From positions 1-64,000 of the forward strand of contig JAFLCC010000012.1 of assembly GCA_017302835.1 (NCBI GenBank): a stretch of 64,000 nucleotides of DNA, written 5' to 3'. Shown here piece after piece: positions 2,152 to 39,356 of the stretch; within the stretch, counting starts at the first letter, position 1, and the number at the start of each line of letters is the position of its first letter. The notes below the pieces were generated by a model. It saw only the letters and a program-made list of their open reading frames with translations. It was not told the DNA's origin and ran no database searches. The DNA comes from Deltaproteobacteria bacterium (GTDB lineage Bacteria; Bdellovibrionota; Bdellovibrionia; Bdellovibrionales; Bdellovibrionaceae). The translations under genes were made by a program, and so were the position numbers.

Positions 2152-3855
2152 GTGATAAGTACAACAAACAAGGATACAACCCTGCCTTCTTTGACTAATG
2201 ACCCATGGAGAAACCAATACCCCTCAGCCGTCCCAAAGCACATAAACCTTTCTCTGTATAAAAATATTCCCGAGGTCTTTGATGAAGCTGTTTCAAAATA
2301 CGCCCATAAAAAAGCCTTTAGTAATTTCTCCACTACTTTAACTTATTCTGATTTAGCTAAACATGTTAATCAGTTTGCCTCTTTTCTTCAACATGAACTT
2401 AAACTTAAAAAAGGAGATAGGATTGCGATTCAAATGCCGAACGTCTTGCAGTACCCCGTGGTCTTGTTTGCCTCTTTGAAAATAGGTCTTATTGTCGTCA
2501 ACACCAACCCGCTCTACACGGCCTACGAAATGAAACATCAATTTAAAGATTCCGGAGCCAAAGCCATCGTTATTTTAAAAAATTATGCTCATTTATTAGA
2601 GGAAATTATAAAAGACACTTCTATTGAAAGCGTTATCCTGACCGAAATTGGCGATATGCTTTCCTTTCCCAAAAATATCATTCTCAATTTTATCATTAAG
2701 TATATTAAAAAAATGGTGCCCTCCTACCACCTTCCTCAATCCTACGATTTTCTTCAAACCCTAGAGATTGGTGCCCTCAACGAAGTGACCCCTACAGATA
2801 TAAGCCAAGAAGATATTGCCTTTCTTCAATACACGGGGGGCACTACAGGTATTTCTAAAGGTGCGATGCTCACCCACAAGAACATGATTGCGAATATGCT
2901 TCAAATTGCCAATTGGATGCTACCAAAACTCAAAAAGGGGGAAGAAATCGCCCTCACCCCTCTACCGATGTATCATATCTTTTCCCTTACGGTGAATTGT
3001 CTTTCCTTTATGCGATATGGGGCAGAAAATGTTTTGATTACCAATCCTAAAGATATTCCCTCTTTTATAAAATTAATGCGCTCAAGTCACTTTACCCTTC
3101 TATCTGGAGTGAATACCCTGTTCAATGCACTTATGAACCATCCTGGTTTTGAAAAAATTAATTTCTCAAAGCTTAAAATTACTGTCGCAGGAGGAATGGC
3201 CTTACAAAATGCTGTTTGTGAAAAATGGCAACGCTTAACAAAATCAAAACTCGTTGAAGGCTACGGCCTGACGGAATCTTCACCCGTGGCCTGCTGCAAT
3301 CCCATTGACGGAACTGATAGAACCGGAACCATTGGTTTGCCTTTACCAGATACATGGATCAAACTTATTGACGAAGATGGAAATGAAGTTCGTGAAGCGG
3401 GAGAGGTCTGTATCAAGGGCCCTCAAGTTATGAAGGGCTATTGGCAAAGGCCCGATGAAACAGATAAAGTTCTGGACAATAATTTCTGGCTTAAAACGGG
3501 AGATATCGGAAGTTATGACGAAAAATATTTTATTAAAATTATCGATCGAAAAAAAGATATGATTTTAGTTTCTGGTTTTAATGTCTATCCCAACGAAGTC
3601 GAAGACGCCCTAGCCAGCCATCCTGGAATTCTTGAAGTGGCCGCCATTGGGGAACCCAGCGAAACTTCCGGAGAAGTAGTCAAAGTAGTTATTGTCAAAA
3701 AGGATCCAAATTTAACAGAGCAAGAAGTGATTGACCATGCTAAGACCAAACTAACTAATTACAAGATACCCAAAATCGTAGAATTTAGATCCGAATTGCC
3801 AAAAACCAATATCGGAAAAATTCTACGACGGGCATTGCGATCTAAAAAAGCCTAA
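2152..3855 (+). CDS. fadD: Long-chain fatty acid-CoA ligase
   Basis: Activates long-chain fatty acids to acyl-CoA using ATP, for beta-oxidation or lipid recycling. It is a full-length ANL-superfamily enzyme (567 aa). Visible motifs in order: the phosphate-binding loop YTGGTTGISKG near residues 226-236, the GYGLTESSP adenine/acyl motif near 370, KTGDIG near 448, and the hinge/C-terminal DRKKDMILVSGFNVYPNEVE near 464-483, ending with KTNIGKILRR containing the catalytic lysine. GTG start at 2152, fixed by AAGGAG at 2141-2146. Its end overlaps the convergent HiPIP gene by 4 bp. Typical FadD length; no missing residues noticed. Confidence 0.95.
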   Translation: MISTTNKDTTLPSLTNDPWRNQYPSAVPKHINLSLYKNIPEVFDEAVSKYAHKKAFSNFSTTLTYSDLAKHVNQFASFLQHELKLKKGDRIAIQMPNVLQYPVVLFASLKIGLIVVNTNPLYTAYEMKHQFKDSGAKAIVILKNYAHLLEEIIKDTSIESVILTEIGDMLSFPKNIILNFIIKYIKKMVPSYHLPQSYDFLQTLEIGALNEVTPTDISQEDIAFLQYTGGTTGISKGAMLTHKNMIANMLQIANWMLPKLKKGEEIALTPLPMYHIFSLTVNCLSFMRYGAENVLITNPKDIPSFIKLMRSSHFTLLSGVNTLFNALMNHPGFEKINFSKLKITVAGGMALQNAVCEKWQRLTKSKLVEGYGLTESSPVACCNPIDGTDRTGTIGLPLPDTWIKLIDEDGNEVREAGEVCIKGPQVMKGYWQRPDETDKVLDNNFWLKTGDIGSYDEKYFIKIIDRKKDMILVSGFNVYPNEVEDALASHPGILEVAAIGEPSETSGEVVKVVIVKKDPNLTEQEVIDHAKTKLTNYKIPKIVEFRSELPKTNIGKILRRALRSKKA

Positions 3856-4286
3856 GCTTTTTTAGCCCAAGAATTGCAAATTCCTTTGCCGGCAACTAAG
3901 GCCTTAGGAAATATAGTGCAAGTCCCAGCTGCTTCGTCTTTTCCATCGATCTTTTTATTCCCTACATTTTTGTAAAAGCTGCAGTTGTCACAGAAACGCT
4001 TTTCCCATGGCAAACCCTTGTCGGTTTTCTTATCAGTCTTGGTATCCTTTTCAGCATTTGCATGGCTGTGATGGTAAGCCATCGCTAGAGCCAAATCTTT
4101 TCCAGGAACAACTACTGGCCAATCAAGCTGACTTCCACCCGCCGCCGCCGCAGGAGCGTCGCCTCGTCTTTTTTCTTGTCCAAAAGCTGTATTCATCAAA
4201 GCAGGTCCAGCAATAAGACTCACCCCGGTAGCCTGGGCAAATAATTTTAAAAAACTTCGTCGTGAATTATTTTGTTTATTTTCCAT
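3852..4286 (-). CDS. hip: High-potential iron-sulfur protein, Tat-exported
   Basis: Small periplasmic electron carrier holding one 4Fe-4S cluster. The N-terminus has a twin-arginine motif (SRRSFLK, residues 8-14) followed by a hydrophobic stretch ending AFGQ, so it should be folded before export. The four cluster cysteines are visible: C99 and C102 (CDNC), C123 (GTCTIFP) and C137 (GKGICNSW), in the usual HiPIP order in the C-terminal 50 residues. A Lys/Asp/Thr-rich and His-containing linker lies between the signal and the cluster domain. HiPIPs pass electrons between membrane cytochrome complexes and terminal oxidases or reductases; the partner here is not apparent from the neighbours. It stands alone between two plus-strand genes. 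Confidence 0.92.
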   Translation of the reverse strand: MENKQNNSRRSFLKLFAQATGVSLIAGPALMNTAFGQEKRRGDAPAAAAGGSQLDWPVVVPGKDLALAMAYHHSHANAEKDTKTDKKTDKGLPWEKRFCDNCSFYKNVGNKKIDGKDEAAGTCTIFPKALVAGKGICNSWAKKA

Positions 4287-4402
4287 ACCTTGTCCTTTTT
4301 TTGTTGTTGTTTCATCGAGTATTCTCTTTCATTTTCAATTGGTTTTCAATAAGATTTTTACTTTTTCTTTACAACACTTTATTCTTCTGGCGAAATGGAA
4401 AG

Positions 4403-5131
4403 ATGACAAAAGCCGAAGACTATTGGAACCAATTTTATTCATTTAGCCGTCCTCAGAATGAACTCTTTATCGAATTTTTATCTGAAAAAGAAAATTCTTT
4501 TTTAAACTCACAACTCTATCGACTCAAAAAAGGAAAAGCCCTAGATTTAGGCATGGGAAAAGGAACAAACTCCCTTTTCCTGGCTGCTAACGATTTCGAA
4601 GTTACAGGAATTGATAGTTCAGAAGTTGCCATTCATAAAACCAAAACACTTTTTGAAAATGCAAACCTCCAAAGAAGCAAAAATCTTAAAGCCGAGTTCT
4701 TAAAAACAGATATGGAGTTACACTTATTTGGCATCTTACAATTCGATACGATTGTGATGAATTATTACAAGCCCCAGGTAAGTCGAGTTTATGATGAAAT
4801 TCAGCGCAGTTTAAAATATGGAGGAACCGTGCTTATCGAATCTTTTTTAATCGACGAAATGAACGAGATCCTTGGACCGGAGGATAGTTATAAGAACATG
4901 TTCTTCAAACCCAACGAAGTCTTAAAAGCCTTCAATTCTTTAAGGATTTTATTTTACAACGAAGGGCTCATTGATGGAAAACAACGCGTTCAATGTTTGG
5001 CGCAAAAACCTTACGACAAGGATATCGAAAAATATAATCTTTTTAATATGTCTCATTCTAAAGACAAAGGCGAAAACACGCCCCTGTCAGCACAACGAAA
5101 ACTCGCCGAATCCTTATTCAAAAAGAAATAA
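4403..5131 (+). CDS. SAM-dependent methyltransferase
   Basis: Class I methyltransferase with the SAM-binding glycine motif ALDLGMGKGTNSLFLA about residues 43-58, followed by the acidic strand-2 end VTGIDSS. Post-motif strands (FDTIVMNYY) and a C-terminal extension are present. The substrate cannot be read from the sequence. The frame extends upstream to 4262, but that would overlap the start of the divergent HiPIP gene and add an implausible Phe/Leu-rich leader, so the ATG at 4403, preceded by GGAAAG, is preferred (242 aa). A hairpin follows the stop codon. Confidence 0.85.
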   Translation: MTKAEDYWNQFYSFSRPQNELFIEFLSEKENSFLNSQLYRLKKGKALDLGMGKGTNSLFLAANDFEVTGIDSSEVAIHKTKTLFENANLQRSKNLKAEFLKTDMELHLFGILQFDTIVMNYYKPQVSRVYDEIQRSLKYGGTVLIESFLIDEMNEILGPEDSYKNMFFKPNEVLKAFNSLRILFYNEGLIDGKQRVQCLAQKPYDKDIEKYNLFNMSHSKDKGENTPLSAQRKLAESLFKKK

Positions 5132-5138
5132 ATAATGT

Positions 5139-5160
5139 CAGGGGTTGCACTTAACCCCTG
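5139..5160 (+). terminator. Perfect hairpin after the methyltransferase gene
   Basis: CAGGGGTT (5139-5146) pairs exactly with AACCCCTG (5153-5160) around a 6-nt loop, 8 nt after the methyltransferase stop. There is no T-run after it, so it is either a weak terminator or a processing or mRNA-stability structure between this gene and the next. Confidence 0.5.
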
Positions 5161-5175
5161 AAGAAATGTAGCCCT

Positions 5176-5505
5176 ATGAAAATAATTATTCATCAACACC
5201 TGCTTATGAATCAACAAAGCATTTCGATTTATCCAACAACGTCTTTTCTAAATTTCATCAAACAAAAAACAGGAAAATCTGAGATTCATCTCCATGCATC
5301 GAACGTGTACCTCTTTCAAATTCCACCCGAAGGCGAAACACAAATACTTAGTTCTGCTCAGATGAAATTTATCTTAAAAGAAGAATTTTCTCTCTATGAA
5401 GAACCCTTTGAATCTCCATTTGATTATTCCGAAAAGGATTTTCATTCTTTTTTCAAAATAGAATGGCATGGTGTAAATTATCATATTGATATTGACAATT
5501 TGTAG
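5176..5505 (+). CDS. Small protein of unknown function
   Basis: 109-aa soluble protein, no family recognised and no signal peptide or membrane segment. It is His- and Glu-rich with mixed alpha/beta character; the last third (EWHGVNYHIDIDNL) looks like a terminal strand pair. It lies between a hairpin and the DUF2817 peptidase gene in the same direction, 21 bp before the latter, so the pair may be co-transcribed. No clear ribosome site is visible. Kept as real because the frame is well filled and the codon use matches its neighbours. Confidence 0.6.
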   Translation: MKIIIHQHLLMNQQSISIYPTTSFLNFIKQKTGKSEIHLHASNVYLFQIPPEGETQILSSAQMKFILKEEFSLYEEPFESPFDYSEKDFHSFFKIEWHGVNYHIDIDNL

Positions 5506-5526
5506 CTCAGCTCACTCAATAGAGAA

Positions 5527-6756
5527 ATGAAATCTACTTTAATTTACTTCGGAAATCTTTTTTGTTTTATTAGCTTCTTTTCTATTCCCCCATCGATGGC
5601 GATCAACTCTCAGTCTTATTTTAAAAATACTTTTGATGAGGCTAAAAATGATTTCTTATCCCGAGCCACCGCTCTCACAAAAAACTCGGGTTACTCCTAT
5701 AACTCCACTCCAAAATCCAGCGAACTAAATCATCTTGTCTATCGTCATGCTAATGGAAAAGAATATCAAGTCTCCTATTTCTTCCTTCCAGCCAAATCTG
5801 AGGATGCCGGTATGGCTAAAAATCTCATCATCCTTCAATCTGGCACCCATGGAGTGGAAGGACACACCGGAAGTGGTGTGCAAAATTTTATAATTGATCT
5901 TTTACAAATGAAATCCCTTAAAAAAACAAATTTTTTATTTATCCATGGAATTAACCAATTCGGTTTTGAAACTAATCGAAGGGTCAATTTCAACAATGTC
6001 GATTTAAACCGTAACTTTATGCTTGAAAAATCTGTCTTTAACGAAGACAACCCTGGCTACACTCTAGTGGATGACTTCTTAAACCCAACGGAAATATTTG
6101 ATAGTGGTTTTCTTGCCAAACTCTATTTTTATTTCAATTCCCTAAAGTTAATTATCAACCACTCCAAAGACACCTTAAAAAGAGCTATCCTCAAAGGGCA
6201 ATCTCACTATTCCAAAGGGATCTACTATTCGGGAAAGGACTACCAACCAGAATTTTTTGCTTTGAATTCAATTTGGGATAAATTTGTTGCCCCCCATGAA
6301 CGGATTTTATTAATAGATATTCACACAGGATATGGAGAAAGAAACAAACTTCATCTTTTAGCTAACTCTTCTAAATCAAAAAATGCGGATCAATTAAAAA
6401 AGATTTTCCACCCCCTCCCGATTGATTTTGGTGATGATAAAGAATTTTATCAAGTCTCCGGAGACATGACGACGTACTTTCAAAAAAAATATGAATCCAA
6501 TAAAGATATTTACGCCTTGGCCTTTGAATTTGGAACTTTAGACTCACAGAAATTATTAGGCTCCCTTGATTCCCTGTACCGCATGATCTCTGAAAACAAA
6601 GGCTTTAATAATGGCTATCAAAATGAAAAAGATAAAAAATATATTCAAAATCTCTTTTCCGAGATGTTTTACCCAAAAGATTTCCAATGGCGGGACGAAG
6701 TCCTAAACCAAAGCAAATCCGCCATTGAAAACGCCATTCATTTTTTTGAACTCTAA
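5527..6756 (+). CDS. Exported DUF2817-type (M14-like) zinc carboxypeptidase
   Basis: Predicted metallopeptidase of the DUF2817 group, which is related to M14 carboxypeptidases. An N-terminal signal peptide (about 25 residues, ending SMA) sends it to the periplasm or outside. The zinc-site motif THGVEGHTG lies near residues 108-116 (His and Glu ligands), DLNRNF near 160 matches the substrate-binding Asn-Arg motif, a third His is in DIHTGYG near 264, and the catalytic Glu is probably in AFEFGTL near 333. This is the full set expected for an active M14 fold. The natural substrate is unknown; peptidoglycan peptides or prey peptides are possibilities. No operon partner is obvious except the small gene before it. 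Confidence 0.85.
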   Translation: MKSTLIYFGNLFCFISFFSIPPSMAINSQSYFKNTFDEAKNDFLSRATALTKNSGYSYNSTPKSSELNHLVYRHANGKEYQVSYFFLPAKSEDAGMAKNLIILQSGTHGVEGHTGSGVQNFIIDLLQMKSLKKTNFLFIHGINQFGFETNRRVNFNNVDLNRNFMLEKSVFNEDNPGYTLVDDFLNPTEIFDSGFLAKLYFYFNSLKLIINHSKDTLKRAILKGQSHYSKGIYYSGKDYQPEFFALNSIWDKFVAPHERILLIDIHTGYGERNKLHLLANSSKSKNADQLKKIFHPLPIDFGDDKEFYQVSGDMTTYFQKKYESNKDIYALAFEFGTLDSQKLLGSLDSLYRMISENKGFNNGYQNEKDKKYIQNLFSEMFYPKDFQWRDEVLNQSKSAIENAIHFFEL

Positions 6757-6885
6757 ACATTCAAAGTTCGGAACCCTTTTCTCATATATCCTTTCATCTA
6801 TGGGTAACTCAAATTGCAGTCTCATTTTTTCGTAAGTCAAAACGACGATTCACATCATTTTCATACATAAACATAAGGAGTCATT

Positions 6886-8058
6886 ATGAAAAAACACACT
6901 TGGATTCTGGCTATCGGAATTCATTCATTAGCTTTGGGATTAATTTTATTTCTCACCGGATGTCTGAAGATCACAGATAAAAATGATAAAACAGAAAGTC
7001 CTCCTCCCCCCGCACCGGTTGTTGAGACTCATTCCCCCGCCGAACCACCCGTGACCGCCGCCAGTATCCCTCCTCCAGCTCGACCCGCAAATGAAATTAA
7101 TAAAATCACACCTAAAAAAGAGCTTATCAATGAACCCTTACGAATGTGCGTCAGAAATACCCATTATGTGGGATTAAAAAAATGTGTGCGCGCAGGGAAA
7201 TGGGTCAAAGTGAGTCTTAGCGCTCAGGATGTGGATAATGACAGAACCGATGTCTTTACAGAACCTGGGGTTTCCGTTCTTAAAGAGAATGTGTACCCTG
7301 ACACCTTTCGTATTGAGCAAGGAATTCACCAAATTACGAACTACCCAGATCAATTCCGAACAAATGCACCCTATGGCGGAGAAGCACATATTTTTTTCGC
7401 AGTTCCAAATCAAATCGATTCTGAAATAAAATTTTCCTACTGGGGTCGAGATGATTCTTTTTCTGACAAAGTCTTTCTTTCTCAAGTGGCCCAACAACCC
7501 GTTCGTTATGTGAAAATACAACATTGGAATGACCGTAGAACATTTAAGAAACACGCGAGCCTCCAATTTAGTTTATTGGGCGACTATCAAGAAACAAACT
7601 ACCGCTACCAATGTTCTTGGATGGAGTCCGATAAGGGTTTAGATTTCACTCAAACTCTTACCAAAGAAGGACTGGCAAATCCAAAGGTTCCTGAATCCAT
7701 CATTTGGAGAAAGATCACCGAAAGATGCGAATCCTTGCCCAGCTTTTTCCCTGCCGAGAATATGAACTTACTTCCTTTCAGAGACGTTAGCCCTAATCAA
7801 TTATTTACAACTCATTCATTTAAAAATGATTCAAAAGCAAGAAAACGAATTTATTTAAAAAATAGCGAAAATTACGAAATAGAGGATACCCCTTTTGATT
7901 TAGCGAATCCCTTTAAAAAATACGAAATACACCTCAACGGTAGCACTCCCATATTTAAAAATTATCGCAATGAAGAAGTCACGCGTATAGAAGGTATCTA
8001 CGATGAAGACTTAAAGGACAAAGGCTTTAACCCACAAAAAGAGATTCTGTTGCCATGA
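6886..8058 (+). CDS. Lipoprotein of unknown function with proline-rich linker
   Basis: Signal peptide with lipobox LTGC (Cys26), then a Pro/Glu-rich linker to about residue 75, then a folded region to residue 390. No family recognised. Several cysteines and aromatic residues and motifs such as YWGRDDSFSDKVFLSQV suggest a beta-rich extracytoplasmic domain. The start is well fixed by AAGGAG 7 nt before ATG. The next gene starts inside its stop codon (ATGA overlap), so the two are translationally coupled and may form one surface complex. Confidence 0.75.
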   Translation: MKKHTWILAIGIHSLALGLILFLTGCLKITDKNDKTESPPPPAPVVETHSPAEPPVTAASIPPPARPANEINKITPKKELINEPLRMCVRNTHYVGLKKCVRAGKWVKVSLSAQDVDNDRTDVFTEPGVSVLKENVYPDTFRIEQGIHQITNYPDQFRTNAPYGGEAHIFFAVPNQIDSEIKFSYWGRDDSFSDKVFLSQVAQQPVRYVKIQHWNDRRTFKKHASLQFSLLGDYQETNYRYQCSWMESDKGLDFTQTLTKEGLANPKVPESIIWRKITERCESLPSFFPAENMNLLPFRDVSPNQLFTTHSFKNDSKARKRIYLKNSENYEIEDTPFDLANPFKKYEIHLNGSTPIFKNYRNEEVTRIEGIYDEDLKDKGFNPQKEILLP

Positions 8059-25006: not shown

Positions 25007-26356
25007 TTAGAGCGAGAACTTTGCGCCTATAAAAAAAGTGGCATTTTCAGAAAGCCGAAATTCACTATTTCTTTTTCCATCCGTAGCCGAAAGCTCGACA
25101 TAATAATTAAAAAAGTTATTCAACGGAGATTCCCAATTCAATTCGAAGGTTCCTGAGTTATCCAAAAAACTTTTTAAATATCGCAAAAATAAAGTTGCTT
25201 GTTTTTGCGACCCTAAATCTGGTAACCGGTAACTCAAGTAAAGATAATTTTGGGTATACAATTCCAATCCGGGCCTTAAGGCCAAAGAAAGATTATTCAG
25301 GTAGAACACTTGAGTTGGCCCCAATGATTTTCCTAAATTTTCTATTTCATTTTGATCATATCCAGCGGTATTCATTAAGTACTCAACGCGAAGGTCTCCC
25401 CTGGATTCCACACGAAATCCAATCACAGCTAAATGTTGGGCTTCTTTTCTTTTCAGTGGATTTTCTTGCAAACTAAATTGTCCAGGAATAATTTCTTTGG
25501 GGTAATAGGCAATGGACCCATCGCTTTGTTTAAAATCGGCATAGAATGAATACGCATCCTTGTAAAAGAAATTAAAGTACCCTCCCCAAAAATTCCTATT
25601 TCTTTCTTCAATCCCATAGGTGAGACCAAAATAAGTATTGGAGTCATTTTTACGCCGAGACTCCCATTTAATTAAAGTTTTCTTTTCAAAATTTTGATTG
25701 GCAATCCAGTAGGGTTCTCTGTTGCTTTCAGGTTCATGTATCAGAATCAAACTATGATTTCCAAAAAGAGTTAAGTTGGATCTTACTAGGACTTTACCCT
25801 TCGCACGATAGAACACTGATTTCTGATCATTTTCAAAATGAAAAAGAATATTGGAAGGACTTAACGACTCTGCAGGCCCCCATTGGAAGTTTTGAAGTCC
25901 CATTGTGAAAGCTAAAAAAGAGCTCGCATCATAATCTAAAAAGGCTTCGTTAACATCCCATTTTCCCTCACTCTTATTTATTTTTTTATCTGAAGTTTGG
26001 TAATAAACTTCTGAACTGGTGCCTAGAAATCTTGGTCTGAGAACAAATCTAAAATCATTTTTATAATTAAGTTTTAAATCTCCACGAATATCTGTTCTTG
26101 CCAGACCCCTTGGGGTGCTAAAAACTTGATTGTCTGGATTGACATCAGATTCGGCAACTTCACGAAGTAACAAGCCATTGATCCATTCCAGGGCCCAGCG
26201 AGAACTCCAGGGACTCCTCATTTCAGAGGGAGGTTTTTTAGGAAATCCTTTTTTAGGTGCTCCGACAGAGATTGTATGACTAAAACAAAAAACTAAAAAA
26301 ATGACGAGGTATTTGAAAAATCTTAATCGAGGCCATTTCAAACATGCTCTATGCAT
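25007..26356 (-). CDS. Predicted outer-membrane beta-barrel protein, last gene of an ABC operon
   Basis: 449 aa with an N-terminal signal sequence (hydrophobic residues about 13-32, then GAPKK). The rest alternates polar and aromatic residues in short strands with Asn/Asp-rich turns and ends ATFFIGAKFSL, the look of a 14-18-strand barrel. No specific porin family was recognised; Wzi-like or alginate-porin-like folds are possibilities. It starts 8 bp inside the end of the upstream permease gene, so it belongs to the ABC/LolA-like operon. This suggests the barrel is the outer-membrane component of that system. Confidence 0.75.
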   Translation of the reverse strand: MHRACLKWPRLRFFKYLVIFLVFCFSHTISVGAPKKGFPKKPPSEMRSPWSSRWALEWINGLLLREVAESDVNPDNQVFSTPRGLARTDIRGDLKLNYKNDFRFVLRPRFLGTSSEVYYQTSDKKINKSEGKWDVNEAFLDYDASSFLAFTMGLQNFQWGPAESLSPSNILFHFENDQKSVFYRAKGKVLVRSNLTLFGNHSLILIHEPESNREPYWIANQNFEKKTLIKWESRRKNDSNTYFGLTYGIEERNRNFWGGYFNFFYKDAYSFYADFKQSDGSIAYYPKEIIPGQFSLQENPLKRKEAQHLAVIGFRVESRGDLRVEYLMNTAGYDQNEIENLGKSLGPTQVFYLNNLSLALRPGLELYTQNYLYLSYRLPDLGSQKQATLFLRYLKSFLDNSGTFELNWESPLNNFFNYYVELSATDGKRNSEFRLSENATFFIGAKFSL

Positions 26357-27671
26357 GGGTTAAATTTTCTGCTACAGTTTTGGATAAGGTTTCTTTTACT
26401 ACAAAAAAACACCCCACTAAAGATAAAACTAAAATATAAAAAGAAACAACAATATAGTTAATGGGCTCTATCGCTAGAGACATCAAATTGGGCTCCACAA
26501 ACTGACCCGCCTTGTAAGAAATATTTAGGTTATTTATAAAGAGCGTGGCCGTCAGAGAAATAATTGCCCCCACAAAAGAACCAAATAAACTTAGCAAACC
26601 AACTTCGACATAGAAAATATTTCGAATTAAACTTTTCGTATAACCAAGACTTCTGAGTGTTCCAATTTCTTTGGTTCTTTCTTTAATACTTTTAAGAAGG
26701 GAATTCATGATGCTCAAAGAGACAATGAGCAAAACAATAATAATGACGAAAGTTTTGAAAATCTTCATCAACCCCATCGTTCTTTTATAAAAATCGCCAA
26801 TCTCCTCGTGGTCCTTCCAAGAAAGAATTCTCACCTCTGGGGGAAGCTCATCCTGGATTTGTTTAAACAATTTTTTATCGTTCTTTAGACTCTCACTAAA
26901 AAATGTTAAGTAACTAACTCCTTTGGTGTCATAAAGCTCCTGAGCCTTTACAAGGGATAACTGAATCGTTCTGGCATCTAACTCTATAAATCCACCATCG
27001 ATGATTCCTAAAATATTAAAATCAAGGGAATTAATTTGACTATTTACAGTCAGAACTGACAAGTTAAATTCATCGCCATTAAGACATTCGAATTCGTGAA
27101 TTTCTTTATCATAACCTTTTCTGGTAGCAATATGTTTTCTGATTTTGTCTTTTTTTTCACAATCAAAGTTTTTAGCTAAAGTCTGTCCCAACAAAACTTT
27201 ATCTGGCAATGGACTTTGATACAAGGACCTCCCAAATAAGGTGTCTTTTTCCCAATAAGGGAGGCGCAATCTTCGGCAATTCTCCACATCAAAACCGTTA
27301 CCAATAAACAAAAATTGTTGAGATTTTTTTTGAATCATTCCACTTATTCTTAGCACCGAACAAATAGGCCAATCCGCAGTGTGGTACTTGCTGATAATGT
27401 CCTTAATCATTTTCTGAGTGGGCTCTTGCAAATAAAACTTCCAGGGTTCTTTCTTAGCTGCCGAGCTTAAACTTAAATTATGCTCAATAATAAAATCACC
27501 GAACATGCTTTTATGTGAATGCGTCTCTTGTAAAAACAAATCGAGGTCCGCGATATAACCTTGAAATAACACTAAGGAAATGAAGGCCGAAGCCAAACTT
27601 AGCAAAGTGGATTTACTTTGCTTGGAATAATTCACTATATTTTTAAAAGCTAATTTAAATAGTATTTTCAT
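26349..27671 (-). CDS. ABC transporter permease, FtsX/LolC-MacB type (second permease)
   Basis: 440 aa with the FtsX-fold layout: one transmembrane helix at the N-terminus, a large periplasmic domain (about residues 45-300), then three helices at the C-terminus. The cytoplasmic coupling motif ERTKEIGTLRSLGYT near 335 is typical of LolC/E and MacB permeases. This family does not move substrates through the membrane but works on periplasmic or outer-leaflet substrates. It overlaps the LolA-like gene before it by 4 bp and the barrel gene after it by 8 bp. The periplasmic domain contains a Cys pair (FDCEKKD and FECLNGD). Confidence 0.88.
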   Translation of the reverse strand: MKILFKLAFKNIVNYSKQSKSTLLSLASAFISLVLFQGYIADLDLFLQETHSHKSMFGDFIIEHNLSLSSAAKKEPWKFYLQEPTQKMIKDIISKYHTADWPICSVLRISGMIQKKSQQFLFIGNGFDVENCRRLRLPYWEKDTLFGRSLYQSPLPDKVLLGQTLAKNFDCEKKDKIRKHIATRKGYDKEIHEFECLNGDEFNLSVLTVNSQINSLDFNILGIIDGGFIELDARTIQLSLVKAQELYDTKGVSYLTFFSESLKNDKKLFKQIQDELPPEVRILSWKDHEEIGDFYKRTMGLMKIFKTFVIIIVLLIVSLSIMNSLLKSIKERTKEIGTLRSLGYTKSLIRNIFYVEVGLLSLFGSFVGAIISLTATLFINNLNISYKAGQFVEPNLMSLAIEPINYIVVSFYILVLSLVGCFFVVKETLSKTVAENLTHA

Positions 27672-28396
27672 CGATTCAAATTATTAACATTAAAAATATT
27701 ATCAGAAATTTCATCAAGAATTGGTTTATCATAGGTGAGGATACTTTTATTTGCCAACCTGTTGGCATCCTGAATAAGCATTTCTGAAATAAAGGGAATT
27801 TTTTTACTTTTAACAAGAATAAAGTTATTATACTTAAAGCTGGCAATTTTAAATACCTTTCCACTTAAAGTAAGAAATTCAGCTTTTAATCCTAATTTAT
27901 CTTTTTCGCGAATCCAATATCTTATTTGATCATAGGTCATTGACTTATTCTTTGCTTTTAGAAGCAAAACCACAACGCTTTCATCTTGAATCATTTCCTT
28001 TTTTATCAAAGTGGGATTATAATCTTTAAAGTAATTGGTACTTGCTATATCCCCATTAGCTGCCTGACCAGATAGCCTTTCTCTGGCGGAAATAGAGACT
28101 GGTTTTTTGAGTGAAGGCTTAAAAAACCAAATAGTGCGATCATTAAATAAAAATGTTTCTCCTTTGAACCTTCCTGTGTCAGCGCTTTCAACATAGGCAT
28201 TGGAATCTTTAGCTTTTACTTTAAAATTTCGCTCTGTTTGAACTTCGTTTTCCCAAGATTTTATGTTGACCATCCATGTGATACCTTGACCGACGCCTCC
28301 CCTTGATCGATCTGAATCTTTTAGCAAGGTAAGAATATTCTCAGCTTGACTTATGGGACCAGAAAAACTGAGCAAAAAAATTAAAATCATTTTCAT
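27668..28396 (-). CDS. LolA-like outer membrane lipoprotein-sorting protein
   Basis: 242 aa with a signal peptide ending SQA. The mature part resembles the LolA/LolB-like fold group annotated as outer membrane lipoprotein-sorting proteins: half-open barrel strands such as TWMVNIKSWEN, GETFLFNDRTIWFFKPSLKKPVSI and VVLLLKAKNKSMTYDQIRYWI. Such proteins carry a hydrophobic cargo through the periplasm. It is encoded between the two FtsX-type permeases with 4-bp overlaps on both sides, so a role as the soluble carrier of this ABC system is likely. It is distinct from the housekeeping LolA, which is usually encoded elsewhere. Confidence 0.8.
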   Translation of the reverse strand: MKMILIFLLSFSGPISQAENILTLLKDSDRSRGGVGQGITWMVNIKSWENEVQTERNFKVKAKDSNAYVESADTGRFKGETFLFNDRTIWFFKPSLKKPVSISARERLSGQAANGDIASTNYFKDYNPTLIKKEMIQDESVVVLLLKAKNKSMTYDQIRYWIREKDKLGLKAEFLTLSGKVFKIASFKYNNFILVKSKKIPFISEMLIQDANRLANKSILTYDKPILDEISDNIFNVNNLNR

Positions 28397-29655
28397 TTAA
28401 AGACCCCCTGTTCATTTAACAGTTCAGCAATTTTAAAGTTCATTTTTTTCTTACACGAAAGATAAGAAGTTATAAACGTAATCAGTATAAGGGCCCCTGC
28501 GTGAATGATGGCAATTTTAAAACTTGTCACAATTGTAAAGTAGACATAACTCGAACTTCCCGCAGGCTCAAAAGGGATTTCTAAGCTGTTAATTATCTTG
28601 GAAACGATCAAATAACAAATACTTGAAACAACTATACTCCCTATAGTTAAAACCAAAACTTCAAGAGTGAACAGTCTTGAAATATGGGTGGTTGTAAATC
28701 CGATACTTCTTAACGTCCCAATTTCCTTCGTTCTTTCATTGATGCTCATCGTGAGGGTATTGATAATCGATAAAACAGAGGCCAAGGTAATCAACACATA
28801 AAAGAATATCCCTATGCTCATGACAAAAGACATGGTTCCCGTATAATAAAAACCAATCTCATCAGAGTCATAAGCAAAAATTTCATATTTCCCCTTAGGA
28901 AGTTCGCTTAATATGGTTTTTATTAAACTTTGGGTTTCATCCACATCATTTAAAAAAACCGCCAAATTATTTACTTTGTCGGTGGCCATTAACTCTTGCA
29001 GTTTCTCGAGGGACATCTTTGCGCTAATATCTTCGGAAAAAACCATTCCCGTTAAATGTTTTCCTGTTAACTCCTCGGTGATTCCATTGAAATAACCATC
29101 AAGGGTTTTACCCAAAATTTGAACTTCAATTTTTTCCTTAAGCGGAAATGTCTGCCCCAACATATTATATAAATTTGAAGTCAAGGATACCCCATCTGAA
29201 ACAGTTAATTGTGATTGCAGCGTGGGTATATTCTCTTTGAGTTCTTTATGATTTGCAATATAGGCCGAAAATCCTTTAGGGTAAGCCTGAATAAACAAAG
29301 GTAAATTTTTATCTCCCGAGGACAAGAGCGCAAATGAGGACAAAATCGGCGCAACGAATTCTATTTTATTTTGAAATTCATTTAAAGTTTTAGCAATTAA
29401 TTCTTGGTCCTGTTTGTTTAGCAAATATTTCTGAGGATCTCGATACAATTCTTTAACGGCTCCCTTTTTATAAATACTAAAATTCCCAAGATGATTTAAA
29501 TAAATAGTTTGGGATCGAATGGCCCTATCAACGGCCATGATATAACCTGATAGAACTAACATCCCGGTAAACCCAAAGACTAAAGCCAACCCTGTGGTCC
29601 AGCTTCTTCGTTTATTTCGATACAGATTTAAAAAGGACCATTTAAGAAAAATCAA
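28393..29655 (-). CDS. ABC transporter permease, FtsX/LolC-MacB type (first permease)
   Basis: 420 aa with the same layout as the second permease: N-terminal helix (TGLALVFGFTGMLVLSGYI), periplasmic domain, and three C-terminal helices. The coupling motif ERTKEIGTLRSIGFT near residue 300 is nearly identical to that of its sister, which points to an old duplication giving a LolC/LolE-like heterodimer. It overlaps the ATPase gene by 4 bp upstream and the LolA-like gene by 4 bp downstream. Confidence 0.88.
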   Translation of the reverse strand: MIFLKWSFLNLYRNKRRSWTTGLALVFGFTGMLVLSGYIMAVDRAIRSQTIYLNHLGNFSIYKKGAVKELYRDPQKYLLNKQDQELIAKTLNEFQNKIEFVAPILSSFALLSSGDKNLPLFIQAYPKGFSAYIANHKELKENIPTLQSQLTVSDGVSLTSNLYNMLGQTFPLKEKIEVQILGKTLDGYFNGITEELTGKHLTGMVFSEDISAKMSLEKLQELMATDKVNNLAVFLNDVDETQSLIKTILSELPKGKYEIFAYDSDEIGFYYTGTMSFVMSIGIFFYVLITLASVLSIINTLTMSINERTKEIGTLRSIGFTTTHISRLFTLEVLVLTIGSIVVSSICYLIVSKIINSLEIPFEPAGSSSYVYFTIVTSFKIAIIHAGALILITFITSYLSCKKKMNFKIAELLNEQGVFK

Positions 29656-30326
29656 ATTAGCTGCCCATCTTTAATATGAATGATTCTAGAAACTTTATTC
29701 ATTAATTTTTCGTCATGGGTGGAAAATAGAAAGGTAACTCCTTTCAATTTATTTAAATTGATCATCAAATCAATAACGCTCGCCGTGGTCACAGAGTCTA
29801 AATTAGCCGTAGGTTCATCAGCCAAGATGAAATCAGGATGATTTACCAAGGCCCTCGCAATGGCCACTCTTTGCCTTTGGCCGCCAGACAATTTATTTGG
29901 AGATGAATGGATGAAATCTATCAAGCCAACATCCATCAGGCATTTTTGAGCAGCCTCACGACGTTCCTTTTCTTTCATTTTCGTATTTAATAATAAGGGG
30001 ATTTCAACATTTTCCAAAACGGTCAACACGGGAATAAGATTAAAACTTTGAAAAATGAAGCCTATTTTCTCATTTCTTAGTTTGGCTTTCTGATCATCGT
30101 CTAGGTTGACAATGTTTTGATTTTGAAAAAGGATCTCTCCTTCATCTGGCTCATCAATAGTTCCAATCATATTAAGTAAAGTGCTTTTTCCAGATCCAGA
30201 GGCCCCTACGATCGCCGCGAATTCACCTTTTTTAATTATCAGATTAATATTCTTTAAGGCTTCAATAGAGGCATCACCTAAAAGGTATTTTTTAGAAACA
30301 TTTTTAAGTTCTATCAGCTTGTCCAT
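29652..30326 (-). CDS. ABC transporter ATPase, LolD/MacB type
   Basis: 224 aa with all nucleotide-binding motifs: Walker A GASGSGKST near residues 39-47, Q-loop FIFQSFNLIP, signature LSGGQRQRVAIARAL near 141, Walker B FILADEPTANLD, and the H-loop STHDEKL. Closest in pattern to LolD and the MacB ATPase. First gene of the five-gene operon (ATPase, permease, LolA-like, permease, barrel); every junction overlaps, so all five are translated from one mRNA. The promoter should lie in 30327-30434. Confidence 0.92.
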   Translation of the reverse strand: MDKLIELKNVSKKYLLGDASIEALKNINLIIKKGEFAAIVGASGSGKSTLLNMIGTIDEPDEGEILFQNQNIVNLDDDQKAKLRNEKIGFIFQSFNLIPVLTVLENVEIPLLLNTKMKEKERREAAQKCLMDVGLIDFIHSSPNKLSGGQRQRVAIARALVNHPDFILADEPTANLDSVTTASVIDLMINLNKLKGVTFLFSTHDEKLMNKVSRIIHIKDGQLI

Positions 30327-30434: not shown

Positions 30435-31739
30435 TTAGGCTGCTTTTTTTATCACGTGATTTTCATCATCGAAATTTTGACTATGAATAGACAATTCAAG
30501 ATTTTTAATAAACTGAATCCAGGATCTTTGATTATTGATGAGCTTCCCAGAATAAATATTATTTTTTAAATCTCTTAAAATTCGAACTTCAATAAGATCT
30601 TTAATTGGCATGCCTCTTACAAATCGAACCAGGTAACTTTCATCGGGAGCCATTTTGCTGCTAGTTTTAATCATGATTCCTGTTCGCGAAAAATTTAAAA
30701 TATGCCCATGAATTAAATCTTTGAAATCTAAAGAATATCTTTGTCCCTCAGGAATATCTACTCTTAAAATCTCAATTTCATAATTAGACACGTACCTGAC
30801 CCCGTTTCTTGCTTTTTTAAGCTTCAAAATATCAGTTTCATTTCGATTAAAGAAATTTGGAAAAACTTCTTTGTAGGCATTTAATACCTCAAGCTTCTCT
30901 TTTTCGCCAAGGGACTCGATAATTTTTTCCTTTTCACGAAAAAACAATTCCAGACTATCTTTCTCAAAACCATAGTGGAAGGGAAGGTTAAATTTAAATT
31001 GTTCAAAGTTTCCTATTTTCTTAAGGTCCTGTTGTTTATAAAATTTAAATAGATTCTTTGAATCCTCTTTATAAGCATAGTGTTTAAAGAATAGACTTTC
31101 AAGCTCGCCTAAATTTACGTAAAGGAAGTAGGAAGGAGAGTTATTAACAAAACCATGGGCAATTTTTTTAGTTTTAAATCGATGAAAAAAAAATAGAGCC
31201 TGATAGTACGAGGCCACATTTGATCTGACCCCGATAATCCAATAATTAACTCCCGCATATTGTGTCGCGTAATGATACATGTACCGAGTTAATGAAAACA
31301 CCAGGGAGTGGGACCTTCTAAACTCCTTTTTTATAGCTAAGGCTGAAATCTCAGCAATTCTTTTCCCTCTTTTTCTAAAACTGGAAATGTCCACAGCCCC
31401 CTCTGAAGGAAGTCCTAACTGACTATCCAGCACATGGGTGACTGTCCCTATGACTTCTTCATTATAAACCGCAACGATAATAATACTTGTCGGTAAACAG
31501 TGGTATTTTGTAACTCGAAGTTCATGGTCCTTACTGTCCATAAGTCCATTTTCAAGATAGGACTCATAGAGTAACTTAAAGGCCTGATTGATTTCATTTT
31601 TATTACTTGCAACCCTGATTTCTATGCCTTCGAGCTGAGATTCATCAATAGAAATGGAATTTCTAATAATTCCACTTTTTATTTTTTCTGGTAGTAATTG
31701 AAAAAGTTTCCAACTTAGTTTTCTTGGCGAAAATCTCAT
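30435..31739 (-). CDS. Acyltransferase (GNAT/FeeM-like) fused to a PilZ domain
   Basis: 434 aa, cytoplasmic. Residues about 40-230 look like a GNAT-fold acyltransferase of the N-acyl amino acid synthase (FeeM) / acyl-homoserine-lactone synthase type: EIRVASNKNEINQAFKLLYESY, VIGTVTHVLDS, EISALAIKKEFRRS. The C-terminal 110 residues carry a PilZ-like domain: RNGVR (RxxxR, c-di-GMP phosphate binding) near 312 and NFSRTG (variant of D/NxSxxG) near 350. This suggests an acyltransferase controlled by c-di-GMP. The first residue of the second motif is Asn, as in some functional PilZ proteins. Single gene; product and acyl donor unknown. Confidence 0.72.
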   Translation of the reverse strand: MRFSPRKLSWKLFQLLPEKIKSGIIRNSISIDESQLEGIEIRVASNKNEINQAFKLLYESYLENGLMDSKDHELRVTKYHCLPTSIIIVAVYNEEVIGTVTHVLDSQLGLPSEGAVDISSFRKRGKRIAEISALAIKKEFRRSHSLVFSLTRYMYHYATQYAGVNYWIIGVRSNVASYYQALFFFHRFKTKKIAHGFVNNSPSYFLYVNLGELESLFFKHYAYKEDSKNLFKFYKQQDLKKIGNFEQFKFNLPFHYGFEKDSLELFFREKEKIIESLGEKEKLEVLNAYKEVFPNFFNRNETDILKLKKARNGVRYVSNYEIEILRVDIPEGQRYSLDFKDLIHGHILNFSRTGIMIKTSSKMAPDESYLVRFVRGMPIKDLIEVRILRDLKNNIYSGKLINNQRSWIQFIKNLELSIHSQNFDDENHVIKKAA

Positions 31740-37469: not shown

Positions 37470-39356
37470 ATGAAAATACCTATCTCGATAAAACTGATCA
37501 TTATCACGAGTCTTCTTCTTATTGGCGTCACCGTTCCCGTCTCCATAAAGACTTCAAGCATTACCAAAGAGAAACTCGTCGATGCTCAACAAGACAACAA
37601 TATAGAGTTGGCCAAAGGTAAATCGCGAGAAATTGATCATATTTTCTCTGGATTAAAAGATAAAATTTCCCTCAATGGCCGATTACTCTTGAGTTTAAAA
37701 GAAACTGAAGAAATGCTCTCAACACAAGCATCGAACGCGAACGCGATGCAAAACTATAATAACTTAAAAAGAGATATCGATAACAATTTTAACTTAGACA
37801 GCTTTATTTTAGGTATCGAAGCTTATAAATTCGAGAATTCCATGGCTACTAAATTAAATGCCAAATACAAAGCGAAAACAGAAGCCAACATGGTCTACAA
37901 TGAACAAGCGGTAAAGTATTTCAGAAAATATTATCCTATTTATTATACTAAGATCGTTGAAGGTAAAGGAAATATGATCTTGTTAAATAGTTCGATAAAA
38001 GGGTATGAACCTGTTTTAACCATTGGCTTACCCCTGATCAGGGACGCCGCCAATAAAATTACCCATGTTGTTATTGCAGATATTTCCCTTTCTGTTTTAC
38101 AAAAAACTGTTTCTGAAAACGGCACCACCAGTTCTTTTTTTATTACCGATGCCAATGGGATTACCTTGGCTGACGTAGATGAAACCAAAGTCATTAATAA
38201 AGTTAATATTTCAGATCAAGATATTGTCTCTTATGCTAAGGAAAGCATCATGGCTAATGGGATGAAATATATTAAAGACAAGAAAACGCGTAAAGCTTTT
38301 TATGCGGCATTTTCAAAAACATCTTTCGGCCCCATTGTCTTTGCTCAGCTAGATGAAAATGTGATCTTGGCAGTTATCGACGAACTCAATTTAAATATTA
38401 TTCGTATTGTTGGGTATTTTTTATCTGGAACTCTGTTTTTAATTTTTCTTTTTTCGATGTCTCTAACTCAGCCCCTCGAAAAATTAACAAGTCTAATCCG
38501 ACTGGTTTCCAAAGGAAACTTCAATGTCAAGGCGGCTCTGCAAATCAACTCATTTTTAAAAGACGAAGTCCGAGAGCTCGCCGTGGCTTTTGATCAAATG
38601 ACGGAAGGGTTAAAAGAAAGAGATAAGGTAAAAAATCTTTTCAATAAATTCCATGGCTCAAGCATCACTGAAGATTTAATGAAAAAAGATGTCAGTATAG
38701 GTGGACAGAGCAAAGAAGTGATTGTTTTTTTTAGCGATATCCGTGGCTTCACTGCCTTTTCTGAGAAGAAAAAACCTGAAGAAGTGGTTAAGATGCTTAA
38801 TGAATACTTCGCTGTGATGGTTAAAATTATCAACTCCCATGGTGGCATTGTTGATAAATTTATTGGCGATGCGATCATGGCCGTTTGGGGTGTTCCTAAA
38901 TCCTCAAACAAAGACGCTCACAATGCGGTAAAAGCTTGTCTTGAAATGCGCAAGGCCCTTGCCGAGCTCAATGATAAAAGGCTCGCACGAAGTGAGTCTC
39001 CCATTCAAATTGGAATGGGACTTCATTATGGATCTGCCATCTCTGGCACCATTGGCTCGGAAGAAAGAATGGAGTACACCATTATTGGAAACACGGTGAA
39101 TACGGGATCGCGAATTGAATCTTCCACAAAGGCGTTTGGCTCCGATTTACTTGTGAGTGATACCGTTATCGAAAAAGTTGGGAGCGATTTTCTAGCCGAG
39201 TATGCCGGTTCCGCTGAAGTCAAAGGTCGTTCTGAACCACTGAAGCTTCATAAGATCAGAGGATTTAAAAAACCAGATGGTGAGTATGAAGTTATTGTCA
39301 CCCCCTATTCAGATTATGAACCAGAAGCTGCAGATAAAGTTAAAATAGCGGCTTAA
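37470..39356 (+). CDS. Class III adenylate/guanylate cyclase with Cache sensor and HAMP
   Basis: 628 aa. N-terminal transmembrane helix, a periplasmic sensor (about residues 30-300, dCache-like: FFITDANGITLADVDETKVI), second helix near 307-330, a HAMP linker, and a class III cyclase domain from about 410. Catalytic residues visible: metal-binding Asp in FFSDIRGFT and in KFIGDAIMAVWG, substrate-selecting Lys in VDKF, Thr in EYTIIGN (the Lys/Thr pair fits ATP rather than GTP), and the Asn-Arg pair in NTVNTGSRIE. Expected to make cAMP in response to an envelope signal. AAGGAG precedes ATG. Third gene of the FecR/barrel/cyclase operon, 9 bp after the barrel gene. Confidence 0.9.
   Translation: MKIPISIKLIIITSLLLIGVTVPVSIKTSSITKEKLVDAQQDNNIELAKGKSREIDHIFSGLKDKISLNGRLLLSLKETEEMLSTQASNANAMQNYNNLKRDIDNNFNLDSFILGIEAYKFENSMATKLNAKYKAKTEANMVYNEQAVKYFRKYYPIYYTKIVEGKGNMILLNSSIKGYEPVLTIGLPLIRDAANKITHVVIADISLSVLQKTVSENGTTSSFFITDANGITLADVDETKVINKVNISDQDIVSYAKESIMANGMKYIKDKKTRKAFYAAFSKTSFGPIVFAQLDENVILAVIDELNLNIIRIVGYFLSGTLFLIFLFSMSLTQPLEKLTSLIRLVSKGNFNVKAALQINSFLKDEVRELAVAFDQMTEGLKERDKVKNLFNKFHGSSITEDLMKKDVSIGGQSKEVIVFFSDIRGFTAFSEKKKPEEVVKMLNEYFAVMVKIINSHGGIVDKFIGDAIMAVWGVPKSSNKDAHNAVKACLEMRKALAELNDKRLARSESPIQIGMGLHYGSAISGTIGSEERMEYTIIGNTVNTGSRIESSTKAFGSDLLVSDTVIEKVGSDFLAEYAGSAEVKGRSEPLKLHKIRGFKKPDGEYEVIVTPYSDYEPEAADKVKIAA

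Follow-up and report, generated by a model that had tools for sequence, protein, structure and literature searches.

The window that we analyzed is a stretch of 64,000 nucleotides from a member of the Bdellovibrionaceae. On its minus strand lies a gene whose product combines an N-terminal domain of the FeeM-type N-acyl amino acid synthases (NAS) with a C-terminal PilZ domain, the two joined by a helical linker of about 70 residues (Table 1). The original prediction had placed this 434-codon open reading frame exactly and had read it as a fusion of PilZ to a GNAT resembling FeeM and acyl-homoserine-lactone (AHL) synthases. That two-domain reading held up in the Pfam FeeM match, the fold of a structural model, the PilZ motifs, and a profile match to the cellulose synthase subunit BcsA. 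Both folds are seen in the model, the catalytic and PilZ motifs are present in the sequence, and the linkage to neighboring genes is conserved. Downstream of the NAS-PilZ gene, after a gap of 108 bp, five genes for a Lol-like exporter follow on the same strand in the same direction. In a scan for promoters and terminators, promoter-like sites were not in excess over shuffled sequences.

Table 1. Features of the NAS-PilZ gene and the downstream Lol-like exporter genes (window coordinates)
Feature	Position	Strand	Basis
NAS-PilZ gene	30435..31739	-	434 aa + stop; Pfam, AlphaFold2 model, structural alignment
NAS (FeeM-like GNAT) domain, residues 37-236	31032..31631	-	Pfam FeeM residues 52-200; FeeM 2g0b over 34-222
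Codon of Glu130, putative catalytic Glu in IAEISAL	31350..31352	-	Present in 83/83 members
Helical linker, residues 237-305	30825..31031	-	Secondary structure of model; matches Nas354 linker 200-278
PilZ domain, residues 306-404	30528..30824	-	Barrel in two models; C-terminal profile to BcsA PilZ; Pfam matches of relatives
RxxxR motif, RNGVR, residues 311-315	30795..30809	-	Sequence; Arg315 invariant, Arg311 50/83
[DN]xSxxG motif, NFSRTG, residues 349-354	30678..30695	-	Sequence; Ser 78/83, Gly 77/83
Conserved C-terminal tail KKAA	30438..30449	-	Tail pattern in family
LolD-like ABC ATPase	29652..30326	-	ABC_tran 1.4e-37; best NCBIfam LolD TIGR02211
FtsX-type ABC permease A (LolC/E-like)	28393..29655	-	PF02687 3.7e-17
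LolA-like periplasmic carrier	27668..28396	-	PF17131 1.3e-28
FtsX-type ABC permease B (LolC/E-like)	26349..27671	-	PF02687 1e-17
Probable outer-membrane beta-barrel protein, last exporter gene	25007..26356	-	Position kept in loci L063 and L133

The N-terminal domain belongs to the FeeM family. Residues 52-200 matched Pfam FeeM with an E value of 2.5e-35 (122 bits; cut-off, 27), and a profile of 23 relatives retrieved FeeM (2g0b) from the PDB at E = 2e-11. An AlphaFold2 model of the full protein, for which the window protein was supplied together with 22 relatives, had a mean pLDDT of 85.6 and a pTM of 0.86. As the original prediction had anticipated, this model contains a GNAT fold, and its best structural match is FeeM (2g0b; Z = 21.3 for residues 34-222, with 178 residues aligned at 2.2 A). 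The next-best folds were the AHL synthases BjaI (Z = 17.4) and LasI (Z = 16.0), and it is conceivable on this basis that the enzyme is an AHL synthase of the LuxI/BjaI type. However, AHL synthases were only second in fold (Z of 16 to 17.4), FeeM was clearly ahead in sequence family, profile, and fold, and the catalytic glutamate in its AE[IV]SAL context is of the type found in NAS enzymes. We consider an AHL synthase very improbable and do not favor it. The glutamate in question, Glu130, is the counterpart of Glu95 in FeeM and Glu103 in the metagenomic enzyme Nas354, and it was invariant in all 83 nonredundant family members. By homology, the window protein very probably transfers an acyl group to an amino acid and would thus be an N-acyl amino acid synthase. 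The earlier reading that it makes N-acyl compounds has good support, both from membership in the FeeM family and from Nas354, which was tested experimentally (PMC4897644). As to which amino acid and which acyl group are used, and in which direction c-di-GMP would act, we can only infer.

FeeM shares the fold and family of residues 34-222 but has no PilZ domain, and to our knowledge a PilZ domain is also absent from NasY1 and NasY2, two FeeM-type enzymes used for comparison. The window protein alone scored 13.7 bits against Pfam PilZ, under the cut-off of 22.5, so the view across the family matters. Pfam PilZ matched 28 of 42 relatives (E up to 0.01; best, 1.9e-14) and 18 of 22 C-terminal fragments (E up to 0.1). 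A profile of the C-terminal region found the PilZ domain of BcsA, the cellulose synthase catalytic subunit, at E = 0.0013 with both motifs in register: RNGVR was paired with RRSHR of BcsA, and DxSxxG was likewise aligned. In the model of the full protein, as well as in a model of the C-terminal region alone, the C-terminal third folded into a barrel of six strands, after which came a helix, and the Foldseek matches of the model included the cellulose synthase PilZ domain 4i86 (TM of 0.69 by target length). The barrel is therefore predicted, with RxxxR and NxSxxG both where the original prediction had put them.

Conservation of the motif residues was uneven. Arg315 was invariant across the 83 members, followed by Ser351 (78/83), Gly354 (77/83), and Asp/Asn349 (73/83), with Arg311 in 50. 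This conservation, together with the models, rules out a chance match to the PilZ motifs. Judged by sequence identity, PilZ is the least conserved and apparently the fastest-evolving domain of these proteins. Among members, its median identity to the window protein was 15%; in the closest relative (locus L063; 57% identical overall), it was 35% identical, compared with 70% for the NAS domain. Despite that 35%, all five motif residues are common to the window protein and this relative.

The architecture has a precedent. Nas343 and Nas354, which were recovered from a slaughterhouse biofilm metagenome, are built as NAS, linker, and PilZ (PMC4897644). Nas354 yields N-acyltyrosine in Escherichia coli, and its E103A mutation abolishes the hemolytic and surface-active phenotypes (PMC4897644). 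We compared these proteins with the window protein through the published description and a primer. The E103A primer spells QIA[E]VSAL (PMC4897644), the same context around the catalytic glutamate as IAEISAL in the window protein, and the Nas354 layout (1-200, a linker of about 80 residues at 200-278, and 279-394) follows the order and spacing of the domains in Table 1. Regulation of Nas343 and Nas354 by PilZ and c-di-GMP was proposed by their authors in 2016 (PMC4897644). The headline idea of the original prediction, that c-di-GMP and lipid signaling would be newly linked, was thus already in print. NasP is reported to be a cAMP-activated N-acyl amino acid synthase (PMC4897644), which would place it, like the protein proposed here, under a cyclic nucleotide second messenger, with cAMP instead of c-di-GMP. 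Within the literature searched, mostly outside subscription journals, PMC4897644 alone joined N-acyl amino acid synthases with PilZ, and no paper joined N-acyl amino acids with LolA.

In the mechanism that we propose, c-di-GMP would be bound by the C-terminal PilZ domain via R311, R315, and N349-S351-G354, and the domain would alter enzyme activity through the helical linker. Binding by the window protein is reasonably probable, and for an allosteric effect on the enzyme we see the chances as about even. Gating by c-di-GMP is plausible in this protein because the full set of RxxxR and NxSxxG residues is kept; elsewhere in the window genome, GGDEF occurs at 4 places and PilZ at 13 further ones. 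The complete set is retained by only 39 of the 83 members, the window protein included, so PilZ may be structural in some of them. It is possible that the domain is degenerate, acting as a structural or protein-interaction module, and that the enzyme is constitutive and controlled by transcription (e.g., by AraC-family regulators) or by proteolysis. Consistent with this alternative, some part of the motif set is missing in 44 of 83 members, among them both paralogues in the window genome, which lack the first arginine. Two of only five AraC-family genes in the window genome adjoin NAS-PilZ paralogues, and Nas354 was active in E. coli without manipulation of c-di-GMP (PMC4897644). However, E. 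coli produces c-di-GMP, so activity there is no proof of independence; Arg315 is invariant in all 83 members, and the window protein has all five motif residues. We judge the degenerate-domain alternative somewhat unlikely. From the sequences, the window protein and some other members are likely to be under c-di-GMP control, which still others have probably lost.

The family also has a recurring C-terminal tail. The pattern [KR].?[AVIS]A ended 25 of 78 members compared with 6 of 651 neighbor proteins (P = 5e-21, with relatedness ignored). C-terminal AA degrons occur on ClpXP substrates, and by analogy the NAS-PilZ tail resembles such degrons. In the window protein, the KKAA tail ends a poorly conserved, low-confidence stretch. 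An adenylate/guanylate-cyclase-like protein encoded at 37470-39356 ends in KIAA, and its L063 orthologue ends in KIAS.

As metagenomic clones, Nas343 and Nas354 come without a biosynthetic operon and lie beside a peptidase-like open reading frame, in contrast to the Lol-like exporter genes at the window locus. What looks undescribed, given that the fusion itself is known, is this genomic context: a putative operon with a lipid exporter, accompanied in relatives by a ThiF gene of the oxazolone type. The window ATPase scored 247.6 bits against the LolD model TIGR02211, below the cut-off of 307.75, so we name the downstream genes Lol-like only. They share with LolCDE-LolA a LolD-like ATPase, FtsX permeases, and a LolA-like carrier. 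They differ in that their scores do not reach the cut-offs for LolD and LolC/E, in being linked to a lipid synthase, and in existing as a second copy, the same genome having another one on contig C26. The product of the last gene had no Pfam or NCBIfam match, and its barrel is predicted from sequence only.

The gene order recurs elsewhere. In L063, NAS, ATPase, permease, LolA-like carrier, permease, and outer-membrane protein follow in the same sequence, with a ThiF gene between NAS and ATPase. In L133, from another family, ThiF and methyltransferase genes precede the same series in a tight run of overlapping or nearly abutting genes. An opposed gene lies between NAS and ATPase in L126. In these neighborhoods, for which open reading frames were called mechanically in mostly draft assemblies, a LolA-like gene lay no more than five genes away in 10 of 67 loci. 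Across 60 genomes, 6 LolA-like genes were observed near NAS-PilZ genes, compared with 0.26 expected (counted by eye from two tables).

In a phylogeny of the LolA-like proteins, the window copy grouped with that of L063 (support of 97/100). NAS-linked copies did not form one clade, and the tree requires three to four changes of linkage, which fits repeated association and not one frozen operon. Because the exporter type is also found without an adjacent NAS gene in many genomes, its link to a NAS product as cargo is circumstantial and partial. The NAS-free copies and the tree rule out an exporter dedicated to NAS everywhere. For the window locus, we propose that an N-acyl amino acid would leave the inner membrane via the downstream Lol-like ABC system and that the LolA-like protein would carry it to the outer membrane or outside. 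We offer this export step tentatively.

Instead of a simple N-acyl amino acid, the final product could be an N-acyl oxazolone, cyclized by a ThiF protein encoded in trans, as in OxzAB, TyzACB, and TrzAS. In those systems, the N-acyltransferase is encoded with a ThiF-type cyclase, an arrangement shared by many of the window gene's relatives, and TrzS, which cyclizes and desaturates N-acyl tryptophan, belongs to a type for which tryptazolone synthesis has been proven (PMC12856293). PRK08223-type ThiF proteins scored over the cut-off in 14 of 60 related genomes, and each of these 14 was one of the 22 that have NAS-PilZ (hypergeometric P = 1.8e-8, with relatedness ignored). ThiF genes lay no more than five genes away in 22 of 67 loci, and by our own count about 15 of 27 were no more than roughly 2 kb from a NAS-PilZ gene. 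They adjoined it in L063 (directly after NAS), L133, L065, and others, and in L113 a NAS-PilZ-like gene begins 28 bp after a ThiF-oxidase fusion of the Rv1355c/TrzS family (653 bits; cut-off, 476). The window genome itself carries ThiF on contigs C3 and C17.

At the window locus, however, neither a ThiF-type cyclase nor a flavin oxidase is encoded adjacent to the gene or fused to it, and there is no ThiF or nitroreductase gene nearby. The absence of an adjacent ThiF and oxidase, in which the locus differs from OxzAB, TyzACB, and TrzAS, rules out its direct membership in an oxazolone pathway. The C3 ThiF gene adjoins another NAS paralogue, and none of the three nitroreductases in the window genome is linked. 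Moreover, producers of stieleriacine and related compounds have NAS and ThiF, yet oxazolones were not detected (PMC12479983). Because ThiF is missing from the window locus, we rank a simple N-acyl amino acid first and an oxazolone formed in trans, which we regard as unlikely, second. The stieleriacine clusters combine NAS, methyltransferase, and ThiF genes, like L063 and L133, and additionally contain a nitroreductase (PMC12479983). PilZ is mentioned in neither PMC12856293 nor PMC12479983, and the latter also does not mention an exporter.

The L113 genes are of separate interest. Positions 3428-7060 encode a 774-residue Rv1355c-family (TrzS) protein and then the NAS-PilZ-like protein, and together these genes look like a complete oxazolone cluster from a member of the Bdellovibrionota. 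The NAS-PilZ-like protein carries RFPFR followed by DIGTDG instead of DxSxxG. Its C-terminal part had no Pfam PilZ match, so the PilZ assignment rests on alignment.

NAS-PilZ genes were unevenly distributed. The window genome has three, and a match to the window protein was found in 22 of 60 related genomes, which makes the window gene accessory. On these grounds, the relevance to a predatory lifestyle that the original prediction had suggested is weak. Of 291 genomes sampled across the phylum, 98 had FeeM matches above the cut-off, and many of these matches lay in frames of 400 to 480 residues. Named relatives came from metagenome-assembled genomes of Bdellovibrionaceae, Pseudobdellovibrionaceae, and Bacteriovoracaceae, with a few filed as Azoarcus; in one filed as Legionella, the open frame is too short for PilZ. 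The profile used to search contigs was built from seven sequences.

Several further loci stood out. Plasmid pBdHAGR2 of Bdellovibrio sp. HAGR004 (AP029178.1; L187) encodes a NAS protein with the degenerate PilZ motif NVARKG, adjoining glycosyltransferase and dTDP-glucose dehydratase genes. On a mobilizable plasmid of Methylorubrum populi (NZ_AP014813.1; L188, 3953-8504), a FeeM-family gene stands in one series with genes for a methyltransferase, an FAD oxidoreductase, and a tryptophan 7-halogenase, a possible cluster for a halogenated N-acyl amino acid. Tandem NAS-PilZ genes in L079 (1304-3815) and 10 FeeM matches in a single genome (G299) are local expansions of the family.

Our best explanation, which we favor by a modest degree, is that the window gene encodes an N-acyl amino acid synthase under PilZ control and that its product would pass to the envelope by the Lol-like exporter. 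A more ambitious version would have c-di-GMP switch the synthesis of N-acyl amino acids or oxazolones, the second Lol-like exporter, dedicated to this lipid, insert it into the outer membrane or release it, and linked AraC-family regulators read it, as a Bdellovibrionota analogue of LuxI/LuxR; we think this quite improbable. An AraC-family gene was nearby in 11 of 67 loci, a linkage that allows a synthase-receptor pair. Such regulators adjoin NAS-PilZ or lie one gene from it in L065 (11456-12295), L066 (8736-9551), and L063 (8233-9033).

In the literature searched, the 2016 proposal that a second messenger controls these enzymes was apparently not followed up. Here, NAS-PilZ proteins emerge as a large, multicopy family in the Bdellovibrionota, and their gene neighborhoods suggest both a destination for the product, by way of a Lol-like exporter, and a fate, as oxazolones made by ThiF cyclases. 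This context gives testable predictions that tie c-di-GMP to envelope lipids, and it suggests that Lol-type machinery may be recruitable for lipids besides lipoproteins.
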